A stretch of DNA of 44,509 nucleotides, taken from contig JANXZF010000025.1 in assembly GCA_025355665.1 (NCBI GenBank), positions 1 through 44,509 of the forward strand, written 5' to 3'. Source of the DNA: Actinomycetes bacterium (GTDB lineage Bacteria > Actinomycetota > Actinomycetes > Nanopelagicales > Nanopelagicaceae). The translations under genes and the position numbers were made by a program. Positions 2,024 to 33,409 of this stretch are shown here, one piece after another; position 1 is the first letter of the stretch; every line of letters starts with the position of its first letter. The notes beneath the pieces are model-generated. The model searched no databases. It was not told the origin of the DNA and was given only the letters and a program-made list of their open reading frames with translations.

Positions 2024-3388
2024 TTAGCGCCATTGCCAATCTTGGCGATCGGCCAAGTCCGCAATAACCAACCCCTGTTCTTCAAGCAGGTGGCGAAGTC
2101 GATCGCTCTCAGTCCAATTTTTATCCGAACGTGCTTTCCCGCGGAGCCTCAAGAGTTCTTCTAGTTCCGGTGTGAGCGCCCTGGTCTCTTCCTTCCGTGA
2201 AAGATCAAGCCCCAAAATTTTGTCAGCAAAAAGAAGCTGTTCCACCTTTGTTTTCAACTCTAAGTCGCGATCCTTTTCAAACGCTCGGATGATCTGAATC
2301 GCACGCGGCGTGTCCAGGTCTTCGCAGATGGCTTGGGTGATCTTCACGTTTTCTGTTGGAATTGCATTCACTTCTTGATTAACCAATTTCCTCCACCGCT
2401 TCAAGGTTTCATCCGCTGCCGCGATTGTTTCCCACGTTAGATCCATTTGACTTCTGTATCGGTTTTCAAGAAAGACCAATCTCAATGCGAGCGAGTCGTA
2501 GCCGTGTTCGACCACGTCTTTAATTAGAACAACATTGCCTGCGCTTTTGGACATCTTTCGCCCTTGGAACAACAGGTGCTCACCGTGTACCCAAAGATCA
2601 ACGGTCTCAGCGCCGGTGATCGCATTTGATTGGGCGCGTTCATTCTCGTGGTGCGGAAAGCGAAGATCGATGCCACCTACGTGGATATCGACGTGGCCAT
2701 CTAGGAATTGGATTGACATTGCCGAGCACTCAATATGCCAACCTGGAAATCCTGGTCCCCAGGGAGAGTCCCAAATCATTTCGGTTCGGTGGCCTGCCGC
2801 CTTCCAAAGGGCCCAATCAGCATGGAATTTTTTTCCACCTTCATCGGTGTATTCATATCGGTGACCAGGTTTGAGAGCCTCGAGGTGATTTCCGCTGATC
2901 ATTCCGTAGCCAGGAAATGACGACGCATCGAAATACACAGAACTATCGCTTCCGACGTAGGCATTTCCCTTTGCAATCAATCTGGCAATCAGATCCTGCA
3001 TGAGCGGAATGCACTCGCTCGCCTTTGGATATTTGTCAGCCGGAAGAATATTGAGATGGGCCAAATCAGTATGAAAGTGTTCTTCGTATTTTCTTGCCAC
3101 AGCAAGCGGGTCGATGTGCTCTGTCTTCGACTGGGCCAGCAGTTTGTCTTCTGCTTCGAAGTCCTCGCTCATATGTCCGACGTCGGTAATGTTTTGAACA
3201 ATGGATACTTGATAGCCCAACACAGTCAGAGTTCGGCGGATTAAATCTGAGAGGAGAAATGTGCGCATATTGCCCACGTGGGCATCCCTGTAGACGGTGG
3301 GCCCGCAGCAGTACATCTTGACTTTGTGATTAGATACGTGAACCGTTTGGACATCGCGGCTCTTGGTGTCGTAGAGGCGAAGTTCCAT
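2024..3388 (-). CDS. cysS: Cysteinyl-tRNA synthetase
   Basis: Class Ia aminoacyl-tRNA synthetase charging tRNA-Cys. Seen directly: a HIGH-type motif in the form HVGN, the zinc-ligand region MYCCGPTVY near the N-terminus, GWHIECSAM, FPHHENE and the KMSKS loop (KMSKSAGN), followed by a helical C-terminal tRNA-binding region of about 150 residues. MshC, the mycothiol cysteine ligase, derives from the same family, but the C-terminal extension and 454-residue length favour CysS. I chose the ATG at 3388, which is 2 bases after the upstream stop; a GTG at 3397 overlapping the upstream gene by 7 bases is the alternative. No clear Shine-Dalgarno, consistent with translational coupling to the acetyltransferase. 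Confidence 0.95.
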   Translation of the reverse strand: MELRLYDTKSRDVQTVHVSNHKVKMYCCGPTVYRDAHVGNMRTFLLSDLIRRTLTVLGYQVSIVQNITDVGHMSEDFEAEDKLLAQSKTEHIDPLAVARKYEEHFHTDLAHLNILPADKYPKASECIPLMQDLIARLIAKGNAYVGSDSSVYFDASSFPGYGMISGNHLEALKPGHRYEYTDEGGKKFHADWALWKAAGHRTEMIWDSPWGPGFPGWHIECSAMSIQFLDGHVDIHVGGIDLRFPHHENERAQSNAITGAETVDLWVHGEHLLFQGRKMSKSAGNVVLIKDVVEHGYDSLALRLVFLENRYRSQMDLTWETIAAADETLKRWRKLVNQEVNAIPTENVKITQAICEDLDTPRAIQIIRAFEKDRDLELKTKVEQLLFADKILGLDLSRKEETRALTPELEELLRLRGKARSDKNWTESDRLRHLLEEQGLVIADLADRQDWQWR

Positions 3389-18560: not shown

Positions 18561-19199
18561 ATGAACATCTCAAACGGTTTGCGCGAACTCATTTTTCCGC
18601 CTCGATGTTTGTGTTGTTCTGTGTTAGGAAGGGAAATTTGTGGCACGTGTTCTATCGAACTCCAAATCCGAAATTATCGAACTCATGTCGGGAACGTGCC
18701 AGTCTTCTCTTCTATCAAATATGGCTCGAAAGCCGGGCGCATTCTCTTGGCTGCCAAGGAGGATGGAGTTCGAAGAGCCGACGAGTTGATGACGGAAGCA
18801 CTCAGGAATTCCTTGAGAACTGCAATCAAGACCTTTGGAATTCATCCGACCTTGATACCGATTCCTCATTCGAAGAAGGCACTTCGCAAGAGAGGTCGGA
18901 ATTTCGTCGAAGAAATTGCGAGTCACATAGCCAGCCAAGAAAACCTTCCAATTCGACAGGTCATTGGACACAACCGCAAAGTTCGCGACCAGTCTCAACT
19001 TGATGCACACTCACGAAGAGGGAATCTTTCTGGCTCGATGAGCGTTATAAGGCCGTTGGTTCGCCCATGTGAGGTGTTCCTGATTGATGACTTAATAACT
19101 ACCGGTGCCACCTTAGGCGAGGCTGTGAGGACACTGGAAATAGGCGGTTTTCACGTTATTGCTGCGGTTACCGCCTTCGTTGCTCTACCCCTACGATAG
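18561..19199 (+). CDS. ComF family phosphoribosyltransferase-like protein
   Basis: A 212-residue ComF/GntX-type protein. An N-terminal zinc-ribbon-like segment (CLCCSVLGREICGTC, residues ~14-28) precedes a phosphoribosyltransferase fold with RGRNFVEEIA and the PRPP loop VFLIDDLITTGATLGEA. In naturally competent bacteria ComF supports DNA uptake; in most actinobacteria the gene is kept next to mtrAB and secA without proof of that role. Start ATG at 18561; no clear Shine-Dalgarno. About 65 bases separate it from secA, while hpf normally stands in this gap in relatives. Confidence 0.88.
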   Translation: MNISNGLRELIFPPRCLCCSVLGREICGTCSIELQIRNYRTHVGNVPVFSSIKYGSKAGRILLAAKEDGVRRADELMTEALRNSLRTAIKTFGIHPTLIPIPHSKKALRKRGRNFVEEIASHIASQENLPIRQVIGHNRKVRDQSQLDAHSRRGNLSGSMSVIRPLVRPCEVFLIDDLITTGATLGEAVRTLEIGGFHVIAAVTAFVALPLR

Positions 19200-19264
19200 G
19201 ACAATGGGTTGGGGCAGTTCCCCTGTAAGGCACCGATTCGCGTGAGTATGAGAAAGGTTGTGGC

Positions 19265-21934
19265 ATGCCAGCATTTTTAGATCGAATCTTGCGGGCAGGA
19301 GAAGGACGAACTATCCGAGATTTGGGCAAAGTCGTCACGCTTGTTAACAGTCACGAGGCAGAGATTTCCTTGCTCAGCGATGAAGACCTACGAGCGATGA
19401 CTGGAAAATTCAAAGAGCGACTTTCCCAAGGTGCCACGTTAGATGATCTACTTCCCGAGGCGTTCGCTGTAGTGCGTGAAGCCGCAAAAAGAACTCTTGG
19501 ACAGCGTCATTACGATGTTCAGTTAATGGGTGGAACGGCGCTTCACCGAGGAAATATTGCTGAAATGCGTACTGGTGAAGGAAAGACTCTCGTTGCAACA
19601 CTTCCCTCATATTTGAACGCTCTTACGGGACGCGGAGTTCACGTAGTAACCGTTAATGATTATTTGGCCGAGCGAGACAGCGAGTGGATGGGTCGAATCC
19701 ACCGTTTCCTCGGGCTCACCGTTGGAGTGATTTTGGGCTCAATGGATCCAACTGAGCGTCGCATCGCTTACGCGGCAGACATTACCTACGGAACCAACAA
19801 TGAGTTCGGCTTCGACTATCTGCGCGACAACATGGCTTGGACTCTCGAAGAGTGCGTCCAGCGAGATCATTACTTTGCAGTCGTCGATGAAGTTGACTCG
19901 ATTCTCATTGACGAAGCGCGTACTCCTCTTATTATCAGTGGACCTGCCGATAAGGCCACTAAGTGGTACGTGGAGTTCAATAACATTGCTCAGAAGTTGG
20001 TTCGCGATGTGCACTATGAAGTGGATGAGAAAAAGCGCACTTCGGGCATTCTCGAAGAAGGCGTAACAAAAGTTGAAGAACTTCTTGGCATCAACAATCT
20101 TTACGAGGCTGCGAATACTCCGCTAATTAGCTACCTCAACAATGCTGTGCGAGCAAAGGAACTCTTCAAGCGCGATAAGGATTATGTCGTCATGAATGGC
20201 GAGCTTCTTATTGTTGATGAGCATACGGGCCGAATTCTCGCGGGCCGTCGCTATAGCGAGGGTATGCACCAGGCCCTCGAAGCAAAAGAACGCATTGAAA
20301 TTCAAGACGAGAACCAGACTTTGGCGACGATTACCCTTCAGAATTATTTCCGTCTTTACGAGAAGATCTCCGGTATGACCGGTACGGCGATGACCGAGGC
20401 CGCCGAATTCAGCCAGATTTACAAGTTGGGCGTAGTGCCTATTCCAACCAACCGCGAAATGATCCGTGCGGATCAAGCAGATCTCGTGTACAAATCCGAA
20501 ATCGGAAAGTTTGAAGCTGTCGCCAAAGACATTGTCGCGCGTCACCGCAAGGGCCAGCCTGTACTCGTAGGAACCGTCAGCGTTGAGAAGTCAGAAGAAC
20601 TTTCCGCAGTGTTGAAGAAAAACGGCGTTGCGCACGAAGTTCTTAACGCTAAACACCACGAACGAGAAGCCGCAATCATTGCAAGGGCCGGAACGGTTGG
20701 AGCGGTAACGGTTGCAACTAACATGGCCGGCCGCGGCACTGACATCATGCTTGGCGGAAACCCTGAATTCATGGCCGACTTCGAACTGCAGCGTCAAGGG
20801 CTTTCGCCAGTTGATACTCCCGAGGAGTATGAACGCGCTTGGCCGGCCGAACTTGCAAAGCAGAAGGCTGCCGTTGCCGCTCAGCACGAAGAAGTAATTT
20901 CTTTCGGTGGGCTTTACGTTCTCGGTACCGAGCGTCACGAATCCAGGCGTATCGATAATCAGCTTCGTGGTCGATCTGGTCGTCAAGGCGATCCAGGAGA
21001 GTCTCGTTTCTATCTTTCTCTTCAAGATGATTTGATGCGCCGCTTCAACTCAGGAATGGTCGAGCGTTTCCTTTCCGCCGCCGGTATTCCTGAAGATACA
21101 CCGATTGAATCCAAGATGGTCAGCAATGCGATCCGCTCAGCTCAAACACAAGTTGAGTCCCAGAACTTTGAAATTAGAAAAAACGTCCTTAAATACGATG
21201 ACGTGCTAAATCGCCAACGCCAAGTAATTTACGGCGAGCGCCGCCTAGTTCTCGAAGGAAAAGATATTCAAGACCAGGTGCAGGAATTCCTGAAGGAGAC
21301 CCTTGCTGCCTACATCACCGCCGCTACTTCTGGCGGGTATGCCGAAGATTGGGATCTGGAGACTCTCTGGGTCGCCTTGAAATCACTTTATCCAATCTCA
21401 TTTACCAACGAAGATTTGGACCGAGAACTAGGAAGCCGAAACGCTTTGGATGGCGATTACCTGGAGAACAAGGTCGTCGAGGATGCACTTCTTGCTTACA
21501 AAGCGCGCGAGGAATTTCTTGGTTCCGAGGTCATGCGCGAGCTTGAGCGCAAAGTTCTTCTATCAGTTCTCGATAGAAAATGGCGCGAGCACCTCTATGA
21601 AATGGACTATCTGCAAGAAGGAATTGGCCTTCGTGCGATGGCTCAGCGTGATCCTCTTGTCGAATATCAGAATGAAGGCTTTGAGCTTTTCTCGGCAATG
21701 ATGGATGCGATCAAGGAAGAAATCGCTGGCTACTTGTTCAACATAGAAGTTACTGTCGAAGAGAGCAGCAATGAAGTTACGGGCAAGGGCCTTGAAGCAC
21801 ATTCGGCTCCGACCGAACTCCAATACTCCGCTCCTGATGAATCGGGAACCAGCACCACTGGTGGGATCTCGAGAAACGCTCCGTGCCCGTGTGGATCAGG
21901 GAAGAAATACAAACGGTGCCACGGAGCGAAGTAA
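19265..21934 (+). CDS. secA: Preprotein translocase ATPase SecA
   Basis: An 889-residue SecA1, the motor that drives unfolded preproteins through SecYEG. Walker A is visible as MRTGEGKT near residue 105, Walker B as [16 protein letters not shown] near 210, NMAGRGTDI and [13 protein letters not shown] in the second helicase domain, the [11 protein letters not shown] linker helix, and the zinc-binding SEC-C tail [17 protein letters not shown] at the very end. The ATG at 19265 follows AAAGG with suitable spacing. Upstream, TACGAT near 19192 is a possible -10, and GGGG at 19211-19214 with CCCC at 19220-19223 can form a small hairpin in the leader. Most of the secreted proteins in this window would depend on it. 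Confidence 0.97.
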
Positions 21935-30133: not shown

Positions 30134-31288
30134 ATGTCCGCTTTTGAAGTGAAAGCATTTGAACTCACAGAACTTCGTCATCATCGAAGTGAGAAATGGC
30201 GCGAATTTCCCGCTGACGTGTTGCCACTTCCCGTTGCCGAAATGGATTTTCCCGTTGCCGCACCCATTCGAAATCTGCTGATGGAAATGGTTTCTAGGTC
30301 AGATCTTGGATATTTAGGGCCGATACCAGAAGTTGCTCTTGGCTTTGAGAGTTTTGCAAAGAAGCGCTGGGGCTGGGTGGCGGATCCGAATCAGATTCAC
30401 ATTGCAACTGACGTCGGAGTGGGCGTCGTGGAGGTTCTTCGCTTATTCACTAGCCCGGGTGACCGTGTCCTTATTAATAGCCCCGTTTACCACAATTTCA
30501 ATACCTGGATCCAAGAAACACGTTTGGTCAAAGTTGACGTGCCATTTGTCCAAGATGGGGACGATTGGAAGCTCGATCTTGGCGCCGTTGAAGACGCTTA
30601 CAGATCTGGAGTGAAAGCGCATTTAGTGTGCAATCCTCATAATCCAATCGGATACGTATATTCAAAGTCTGAACTTTTGAAGATTGCCGAACTCGCTCGC
30701 GAATATTCAGTGATCGTCATTAGCGATGAGATCCATGGACCGCTTACATACTCGGAATCCACTTTCCTTCCATTTCTAACCTTAGGTCCCGTAGCGGAGG
30801 AAGTCGGAATTGTTGTAACTGCGGCGAGCAAGGCGTGGAATATTGCAGGATTGAAGTGCGCCATCGTGATCAGCCAGAGCGCGAAGATGGATGCGCTGTT
30901 GAAGAAACTTCCGATCGCTACGCATTACCGAGCATCGCTACTTGGTGGATTTGCAACTGCCGTCGCGTATTCCGAAGGAGAGGAATGGCTGGATGGGGTG
31001 CTGAAAACTCTTGATTCAAACCGATATCTTTTGCGAGATTTGCTAGACAAGAAACTTCCGGAAGTTAAGTACCGCGTCCCTAATTGCACCTATCTTGCGT
31101 GGTTAGATCTTGAAGCGCTCGACATCGGTAGGAACCCGTCGGAAATTCTGCTTGATCGAGGCAGGGTTGCTCTTTCGCCAGGCAAGGCTTTCAGCCCAAA
31201 GACTGCAAGCTTTGTCCGGCTTAATTTCGCGACTAGTCCAGAAATTCTCACCGAGGCAGTAGATCGAATGGTGGTTGCAATCTCATGA
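30134..31288 (+). CDS. MalY/PatB-type C-S lyase (PLP aminotransferase fold)
   Basis: A 384-residue fold-type I PLP enzyme of the MalY/PatB branch, which breaks the C-S bond of cystathionine or cysteine conjugates. Seen: LPLPVAEMDFPVAAPI near residue 30 (the family's WVADMDF-like segment), CNPHNPIGYVYS, VISDEIHGPLTY, and the PLP lysine in TAASKAWNIAGLKCA. The end overlaps the next gene by ATGA (31285-31288). With the downstream cystathionine-type enzyme it forms a two-step transsulfuration unit. Which sulfur substrate is used cannot be read from sequence. Confidence 0.87.
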   Translation: MSAFEVKAFELTELRHHRSEKWREFPADVLPLPVAEMDFPVAAPIRNLLMEMVSRSDLGYLGPIPEVALGFESFAKKRWGWVADPNQIHIATDVGVGVVEVLRLFTSPGDRVLINSPVYHNFNTWIQETRLVKVDVPFVQDGDDWKLDLGAVEDAYRSGVKAHLVCNPHNPIGYVYSKSELLKIAELAREYSVIVISDEIHGPLTYSESTFLPFLTLGPVAEEVGIVVTAASKAWNIAGLKCAIVISQSAKMDALLKKLPIATHYRASLLGGFATAVAYSEGEEWLDGVLKTLDSNRYLLRDLLDKKLPEVKYRVPNCTYLAWLDLEALDIGRNPSEILLDRGRVALSPGKAFSPKTASFVRLNFATSPEILTEAVDRMVVAIS

Positions 31289-32400
31289 GCACAACTAAGA
31301 AACCGAAACCTGCAACATTGGCGATTTCGGCCGGGCGTCCCGATCCCGCACCGGATGCACCACTTAACCCTCCGATCATTTTAAGTTCAACGTTCCATGC
31401 AGGAGGACCGCTCGGTTATGGTCGCTACGGCAACGAGTCGTGGAGTGCTTTGGAAAGCGCAATCGGTGCATTTGAATGCGGTTCCACTCTGGTTTTTTCT
31501 TCGGGAATGGCCGCCATAAGCGCAGTATTTTCGATCTTGCCAGTCGGCGCAGTTGTAACGGCTTCGCATCAGGGATACAGCGGCGTGATGACGCTTCTTG
31601 GAAGTTTGAATGCGAGCGGCAAAATTGAAGTGCGCTTCGTTGACGTATCTAACACCGAAGAAGTGTTGACCGCGCTACCTGGCACTGCGCTCTTGTGGTT
31701 GGAATCCCCGACAAACCCAACGTTGACTGTGGCAGATCTACCTCGAATCATTTCGGCGGCAAAGAAGGAGGGTTGTGGTGTTGCAGTTGATAACACCTTC
31801 GCAACTCCTCTGGTGCAGCAACCTCTTCTAATGGGCGCAGATATCGTCGTTCACTCCGTGACCAAATACTTTGCTGGCCACAGTGACCTAGTGATGGGTT
31901 CCCTTTCCACACAAGATCCTGCATTGCTCATTCGCCTCTCCGATGCTCGAAAGTTTGGCGGCGCCATCCCAGGGCCGTTTGAGGCCTGGTTGGCTCTTCG
32001 AGGTCTTAGGACTTTTCCATTGCGTTTTGAACGTGCACAGGCCAATGCACTCGAGCTCGCTACTCGACTCTCAACCCATCCAAAGGTGGATCGGGTTTTC
32101 TATCCTGGCCTTCCAACTGATCCCCAACATGTACGTGCCTCAAGTTTCATGAAGGGCTTTGGCGCGGTTCTATCTTTTAGTCTCAAATCGGGAGCGGAGC
32201 AGGCTGACCTGGTTTGTGAATCTTCGTTAATCATCACCTACGCAACAAGCCTCGGTGGAATTGAGTCCTTGTGGGAGAGGCGACGTCGCTGGGCTAATGA
32301 GAGTGCTAGCGTGCCTGAAAGTCTTATTCGGCTGTCGGTTGGCTGTGAAGATGTAGAGGATCTTTGGGAGGACATAGTTCAATCTCTAGAAAACGCATAA
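31285..32400 (+). CDS. Cys/Met metabolism PLP enzyme (cystathionine gamma-synthase/lyase family)
   Basis: A 371-residue member of the transsulfuration family. Seen: YGRYGNESWSALESAIGAFE near residue 45, LLWLESPTNPTL, VAVDNTFATPL and the PLP-lysine segment VHSVTKYFAGHSDLVMG. Gamma-synthase, gamma-lyase and beta-lyase cannot be told apart by these motifs. With the overlapping MalY/PatB gene, a methionine route (gamma-synthase then beta-lyase) is the simplest reading. Start ATG is fused to the previous stop. Confidence 0.88.
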   Translation: MSTTKKPKPATLAISAGRPDPAPDAPLNPPIILSSTFHAGGPLGYGRYGNESWSALESAIGAFECGSTLVFSSGMAAISAVFSILPVGAVVTASHQGYSGVMTLLGSLNASGKIEVRFVDVSNTEEVLTALPGTALLWLESPTNPTLTVADLPRIISAAKKEGCGVAVDNTFATPLVQQPLLMGADIVVHSVTKYFAGHSDLVMGSLSTQDPALLIRLSDARKFGGAIPGPFEAWLALRGLRTFPLRFERAQANALELATRLSTHPKVDRVFYPGLPTDPQHVRASSFMKGFGAVLSFSLKSGAEQADLVCESSLIITYATSLGGIESLWERRRRWANESASVPESLIRLSVGCEDVEDLWEDIVQSLENA

Positions 32401-32442: not shown

Positions 32443-32448
32443 TATTTT
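32443..32448 (+). promoter_or_regulatory. Leaderless -10 box of the 49-residue small protein
   Basis: TATTTT, six bases (AGTGTC), then ATG at 32455. Perfect TANNNT-N6-ATG spacing; no Shine-Dalgarno. It defines an otherwise overlooked start codon. Confidence 0.6.
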
Positions 32449-32454
32449 AGTGTC

Positions 32455-32604
32455 ATGTTCAAATTCGTCCGACGCCTTTCGGGAGTAGTTGTATTTACTA
32501 TTCTCTCGTTTCGCGCTGTCGGTTCATTTCTTTCTTGGGTGGAGCGGCAAGAAGATGGTCCGCAGAGTGTCTGGACCGACGAAGATGAATTTGAAGACGC
32601 CTAA
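32455..32604 (+). CDS. Small protein, 49 residues, hydrophobic N-terminus and acidic tail
   Basis: A short frame, below usual gene-length cut-offs, that starts exactly 6 bases after a TATTTT box. Residues 1-8 are basic (MFKFVRR), 9-29 are hydrophobic enough for a membrane segment or amphipathic helix (LSGVVVFTILSFRAVGSFL), and the last 20 are strongly acidic, ending DEDEFEDA. The alternation of basic, hydrophobic and acidic parts is not what a random frame gives. The next gene's ATG at 32585 lies inside its last codons, in another frame, suggesting translational coupling. No family recognised; function unknown. Confidence 0.6.
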   Translation: MFKFVRRLSGVVVFTILSFRAVGSFLSWVERQEDGPQSVWTDEDEFEDA

Positions 32605-32974
32605 ATATAACTCGGGTAGTTGTAACATCGGTGGTGCTGAGGTTCGCCGTCGCAGAGTCTCAGGAATCACTGGTGCAGTGGTTTCTGTAGTTTTTTACAT
32701 TTCCTGCATTTCTCTAAACGCGCCCAAGGGAATTCGAGCAATAATCTTCCTTCCCTTGGTGCTCGCATGGACAGGTTGGCTCCAATCGCGCAACAAGTTT
32801 TGTGTGGCCTTTGGTTTGATGGGCGTATTCAATTTCGGGGAATTGGGTCAGGCTTCTCGCATAGCAGAAGCCGACGCGCGTGCAGTCGATCGAAAACGCG
32901 CTTTGGTTCTGCTCGGCCAGGCAGTTGCATTGTCGATAGTGTCCGCACTATTTTTTACCCTCATTCCCGCGTAA
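32585..32974 (+). CDS. Hypothetical membrane protein, three spans
   Basis: A 129-residue protein with likely spans at ~22-43, ~48-66 and ~106-127 and a conserved-looking cytoplasmic middle, SRNKFCVAFGLMGVFNFGE followed by a charged helix (RIAEADARAVDRKRA). The ATG at 32585 overlaps the 49-residue gene by 20 bases; the frame is open back to 32489 but the upstream part resembles no protein start. The family is not recognised. Codon use and the span pattern support a real gene. Confidence 0.6.
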   Translation: MNLKTPKYNSGSCNIGGAEVRRRRVSGITGAVVSVVFYISCISLNAPKGIRAIIFLPLVLAWTGWLQSRNKFCVAFGLMGVFNFGELGQASRIAEADARAVDRKRALVLLGQAVALSIVSALFFTLIPA

Positions 32975-33067: not shown

Positions 33068-33409
33068 ATGAAAATCGTTGTCCACGCTCGTCAAGCTCAG
33101 CTAGCAGATGATTTCAAAATGATCGTAGAAGAAAAATTAAATTCGATGAATCGTTTTAGTATTACGATTGATCGTGTAGAAGTAGAAATAATTCATGAAG
33201 GAAATCCCAGACAAGGCAAATTCTCTCACAGGGTAATTCTGACCTCACATGGCGCAGGACCACTACTGCGCGCCCAAGCTGCTGCTTTCAATGATGTAGC
33301 TGCATTTGATCTAGCGGTCAAGAACTTTGAGTTACAGATTCGAAAAATACACGAGAGGGCGAAAGAAATTACTCACGACAGTGTTCGTCGCAAGGCGGTT
33401 TCGGAGTAA
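33068..33409 (+). CDS. hpf: Ribosome hibernation promoting factor, short form
   Basis: A 113-residue HPF/YfiA protein that binds the decoding region of the 30S subunit and silences ribosomes under stress. The beta-alpha-beta fold is visible: KIVVHARQAQLADDFKMIVE, the strand VEVEIIHEG, HRVILTSHGAGPLLRA, and the terminal helix AAFDLAVKNFELQIRKI. Actinobacteria usually carry the long form, with an extra C-terminal dimerisation domain that makes 100S ribosomes; here the protein ends after the first domain. Start ATG 33068 has AGGGAG six bases upstream. The gene is usually between comF and secA; here it is alone, 14 kb away, 3 bases from the convergent terC. Confidence 0.9.
   Translation: MKIVVHARQAQLADDFKMIVEEKLNSMNRFSITIDRVEVEIIHEGNPRQGKFSHRVILTSHGAGPLLRAQAAAFNDVAAFDLAVKNFELQIRKIHERAKEITHDSVRRKAVSE

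Follow-up and report, generated by a model that had tools for sequence, protein, structure and literature searches.

The 49-residue reading frame

Does a reading frame of only 49 codons, squeezed between a metabolic gene and a membrane protein gene in a freshwater actinobacterium, encode a protein, and if so, what could that protein do? The frame lies in a contig of the family Nanopelagicaceae (JANXZF010000025.1, 44,509 nucleotides); this whole stretch of DNA was analysed and is called the window here. A first-pass annotation, made from the sequence alone, had pointed to the frame as an overlooked gene. The features discussed below are the following:

31285..32400, + strand: upstream neighbour, a Cys/Met-metabolism PLP enzyme, cystathionine gamma-lyase-like; neighbour in most relatives
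32443..32448, + strand: TATTTT, putative -10 box (TANNNT) of a leaderless promoter, separated from the ATG by 6 bases; box present in 29/29 homologues
32455..32604, stop codon included, + strand: gene of a 49-residue, predicted single-helix membrane protein, based on homologues, selection, a frame test and a helix model
32585..32974, + strand: CNIG membrane protein of 129 aa, sharing 20 bases with the small gene; a frequent and not an obligate neighbour
33068..33409, + strand: downstream neighbour, ribosome hibernation-promoting factor (HPF/YfiA)

The open reading frame at 32455-32604 (+) translates as MFKFVRRLSGVVVFTILSFRAVGSFLSWVERQEDGPQSVWTDEDEFEDA, followed by the stop codon. The basic start, membrane-like segment and acidic tail read from it earlier were borne out: the first 8 residues carry a charge of +3 and the last 20 residues one of -8, with one hydrophobic helix in between, and AlphaFold predicted a single helix at residues 2-33 followed by a low-confidence tail. 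The best 19-residue hydropathy is 1.8, a borderline value because Arg20 lies within the helix; hydropathy was borderline in the window's genus and higher in several other genera. The protein probably has a membrane helix, and given the basic start its N-terminus should lie inside and its acidic tail outside. Searches of the small protein against Pfam, NCBIfam, PHROG and the PDB returned nothing convincing, with no family match in the first three.

The small gene was found in 20/20 congeners searched, full length and 65-96% identical in 19 of them and cut by a contig end in one. A profile search gave matches at E<=1 in 136 of 151 family genomes, a few of them weak and due to chance, and in 78 of the 83 good family genomes, again with a few weak chance matches included. 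In the other families of the class, the same profile search did not find the gene, and just weak partial matches appeared there, mostly inside longer frames. Most of the named records that carry it are actinobacterial MAGs from lakes and groundwater, and one is named Candidatus Nanopelagicaceae.

Selection on the frame was also evident. Comparison with the nearest relative gave a dN of 0.022 and a dS of 0.41, which indicates strongly purifying selection. Among 23 gapless homologues, the claimed frame was free of stops and the other two frames carried stops in nearly all; pooled pN/pS was 0.29 in the claimed frame and 1.1 and 1.8 in the others. Stops, frameshifts or a Ka/Ks near one in relatives, the signs proposed earlier as speaking against a gene, were looked for, and none of them appeared. 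The homologues across the family, the frame test and the purifying selection uphold the proposal of a real protein, and on these comparisons the 49-residue frame is almost certainly a real, strongly conserved gene. Judged by its sequence distribution, it is a lineage-specific gene for a small, predicted membrane protein of one freshwater actinobacterial clade. This clade thereby gains a nearly universal small membrane protein that is unseen by current family libraries.

Promoter and translation start

In 29/29 homologues with upstream sequence, a TANNNT box ends 6-7 bases ahead of the start codon, where about 9% would be expected for each, and 20 further homologues show the box too when read by eye. 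The most conserved upstream columns were -13 to -7 and -15, with G at -15 and -13, and no consistent Shine-Dalgarno sequence was found upstream of the small gene in the homologues compared. At other ATGs of these genomes, the box occurred at offset 6 in 24 of 223 cases and in about 2-3 at most other offsets. The conservation of the box in all 29 homologues agrees with the leaderless promoter claimed in the first-pass annotation, and the small gene is very probably leaderless. Such a promoter is ordinary for the group because leaderless genes are common in it: about a fifth of Actinobacteria genes are leaderless (PMC3160421), and among M. tuberculosis genes that have a primary start site, 26% are (PMC3898074). 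For Nanopelagicales, our literature search found no paper dealing with leaderless genes or with small proteins.

Mutual exclusion with DLW-39

A link to DLW-39 (NF038356) was first prompted by the tail of the protein, with its tryptophan and acidic residues. The literature search found no papers on DLW-39. This protein was detected in 46/60 genomes of the class and in 0/3 of the family genomes first sampled, and it was not found in the window's genome. Among 61 family genomes, DLW-39 scored above the cut-off in genera g5, g9 and g14, and in g12 it scored below the cut-off yet lay at the same site as in the other DLW-39 genera; the few further matches in these genomes were weak and fell within long frames. 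These four genera, g5, g9, g12 and g14, are the ones in which the 49-residue gene is missing; in the single g3 genome (78% complete), neither DLW-39 nor the 49-residue gene was found. Within the family, the 49-residue protein and DLW-39 are mutually exclusive by genus, and one switch is needed to account for the pattern. This genus-level exclusion is newly recognised here. The DLW-39 proteins of g9 and g12 have a long acidic tail, score near or below the NCBIfam cut-off and are encoded at the normal site (L127, L128, L129, L131, L132).

In this family, the DLW-39 gene is flanked by tRNA-Ile and tRNA-Ala, with gyrA ahead of the site and a cyclophilin gene following it. Genera that carry the 49-residue gene have a gap of 11-98 bases between the two tRNAs wherever both were found before the cyclophilin gene, a readout confined to genomes with these tRNAs in the fetched stretch; from these sequences, the site is closed up in these genera. 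DUF3566 (PF12089) was rejected as a landmark since it was absent in 19/19 family genomes, with or without DLW-39, and the cyclophilin gene was used; the two other actinomycetes searched both have DUF3566. In g5, the small-protein profile gave weak matches beside DLW-39; these overlap tRNA-Ile and were judged to be noise.

A GyrA tree of 27 rows, with g14 and several small-gene genera left out, grouped every included carrier of the 49-residue gene into a single clade (100/99); g9 and g12 together formed its sister group, and g5 was basal. This topology implies that DLW-39 is ancestral and that DLW-39 was lost and the new gene arose on one and the same branch. Because the exclusion amounts to a single evolutionary switch, on a branch that is fairly long, coincidence is possible.

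Profile comparisons with DLW-39

Against DLW-39 sequences from outside the family, the small protein gave no signal: 32/200 shuffles, and later 64/150 and 30/150, scored as high. Homology to DLW-39 based on outside-family sequences alone was rejected, as it was no better than shuffles. With the family's own DLW-39, hhalign gave a probability of 61% for diverse rows (1/150 shuffles as high) and of 30% for all rows (0/150 shuffles as high), and in the profile alignment W28 of the 49-residue protein falls on the DLW-39 tryptophan. Among divergent members, 18/20 outscored all 25 membrane-segment decoys and 13/20 beat all 60 of their own shuffles; within the window's own genus, scores against the family's DLW-39 were like those of shuffles. 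Plain HMMER scores were slightly above those of shuffles, no more, and when whole genomes were searched with the DLW-39 profile of the family, the small gene was picked up in none. As several forms of homology test were tried, the positive ones deserve caution. Taken with this caution, the profile comparison with the family's own DLW-39 suggests common descent; the whole-genome search does not.

These results also bear on a second explanation, namely that the small protein is a lineage-specific membrane protein whose job has nothing to do with DLW-39, and that DLW-39 was lost by coincidence in a gene-losing lineage. The single switch on the GyrA tree would be compatible with it, as would the failure of the whole-genome and HMMER tests to join the two families and the different genomic places of the two genes. 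Such a coincidence would, however, leave aside that the two proteins have the same size and build, that the exclusion holds in every well-covered genus tested, and that similarity rises towards the DLW-39 of the sister clade. We consider an unrelated job conceivable, if somewhat improbable.

Neighbouring genes and the CNIG protein

The gene of the CNIG protein, for which the model shows three long helices, begins inside the small gene. In most congeners, an ATG within GATGCCTGA overlaps the small gene's end and could serve as the CNIG start. Where that ATG would stand, the window and some relatives carry GAC and need a different start; the simplest choice in the window is the ATG at 32585. This ATG sits in another frame, as described in the first-pass annotation, and gives the 20-base overlap. 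In other genera, CNIG abuts the small gene or overlaps it by a few bases. No Pfam or NCBIfam family was found for the CNIG protein, and a fold search gave no match with E <= 0.001. Beyond the class, CNIG has relatives in two families of the same phylum (E 1e-27 to 1e-30; L116-L119), and two of these relatives lie in open frames 390-399 residues long that are perhaps fusions.

Although the two genes adjoin in most relatives, CNIG is deleted or broken in 4 of the 21 genomes of the genus: G005 and G015 lack it, G017 retains a short remnant and G014 has an internal deletion. The small gene is intact in all four, and the small protein of G014 is 96% identical. Furthermore, CNIG is located elsewhere in G023 and G030, which belong to two other genera and retain the small gene, and CNIG occurs without the 49-residue gene in genera g9 and g12. 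G014 is the closest relative, and its CNIG is reduced to the two ends (L102, about 3069-3160).

The coupled two-gene membrane unit proposed earlier therefore stands in part: overlap or abutment in most relatives speaks for it, and the loss of CNIG in four congeners and its relocation in two genera speak against it. In terms of gene order, the small gene and CNIG form a frequent neighbourhood and not an obligate unit. That the small protein is the partner of CNIG, joined to it by translational coupling in one shared membrane complex, would account for an adjacency, often an overlap, kept over many genera. Nevertheless, an intact small gene beside a lost, broken or relocated CNIG, together with a CNIG kept without the small gene in g9 and g12, makes this explanation unlikely. 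That the frame is a leader setting the translation of the downstream gene, with an unimportant peptide, as its overlap with the downstream start might suggest, is refuted for practical purposes, since its amino acids are conserved and its synonymous sites are not, and since the frame persists in genomes that have lost the downstream gene.

In Actinobacteria, the HPF gene usually lies between ComF-like and SecA-like genes. In the window, the ComF-like and SecA-like genes (18561-21934) adjoin without an HPF gene between them, and the HPF gene (33068-33409) is found behind the small gene, about 11 kb from this pair.

Proposed role

Our best explanation is that the 49-residue protein has taken over the role of DLW-39, a proposal that we regard as evenly balanced. 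The 49-residue gene would have arisen on the family branch where DLW-39 disappears and would most likely have taken over its job, either as a relocated, diverged copy or as a substitute. The first of these forms is put forward tentatively: in the ancestor of the crown clade, the DLW-39 gene may have moved from the tRNA-Ile/tRNA-Ala site to a position downstream of the cystathionine lyase gene, with a leaderless promoter of its own, and its sequence would have changed so far that the family models no longer recognise it.

The mRNA of the small gene probably starts at the ATG, from the gene's own TANNNT promoter, and would be translated without a leader. The overlapping CNIG gene downstream may be translated by coupling and is dispensable to the small gene. 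We infer that the protein most likely serves a membrane complex as a small accessory subunit. If replacement did take place, two dissimilar small proteins performing one job would constitute a natural complementation experiment, and such a pair would narrow what DLW-39 must do.

Comparison with known systems

In leaderless genes of Actinobacteria, a TANNNT box lies about 12 bases ahead of the start codon (PMC3160421, PMC3898074). The small gene resembles them in its TANNNT box 6-7 bases before the ATG and in having no consistent Shine-Dalgarno sequence, and no difference from them was seen at the sequence level.

The comparison with DLW-39 reveals both differences and likenesses. The two differ in place, DLW-39 being encoded between tRNA-Ile and tRNA-Ala behind gyrA and the small gene behind the cystathionine lyase gene. 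They also differ with respect to the family model, since none of 28 members of the 49-residue family matched NF038356. DLW-39 occurs in most other actinomycete genomes searched and in the other genera of this family, and it is a protein of 38-56 residues with a basic start, one N-terminal helix and a charged tail with a conserved tryptophan. The 49-residue protein has a build of the same type: it is small, its predicted helix is N-terminal and its charged tail contains a tryptophan.
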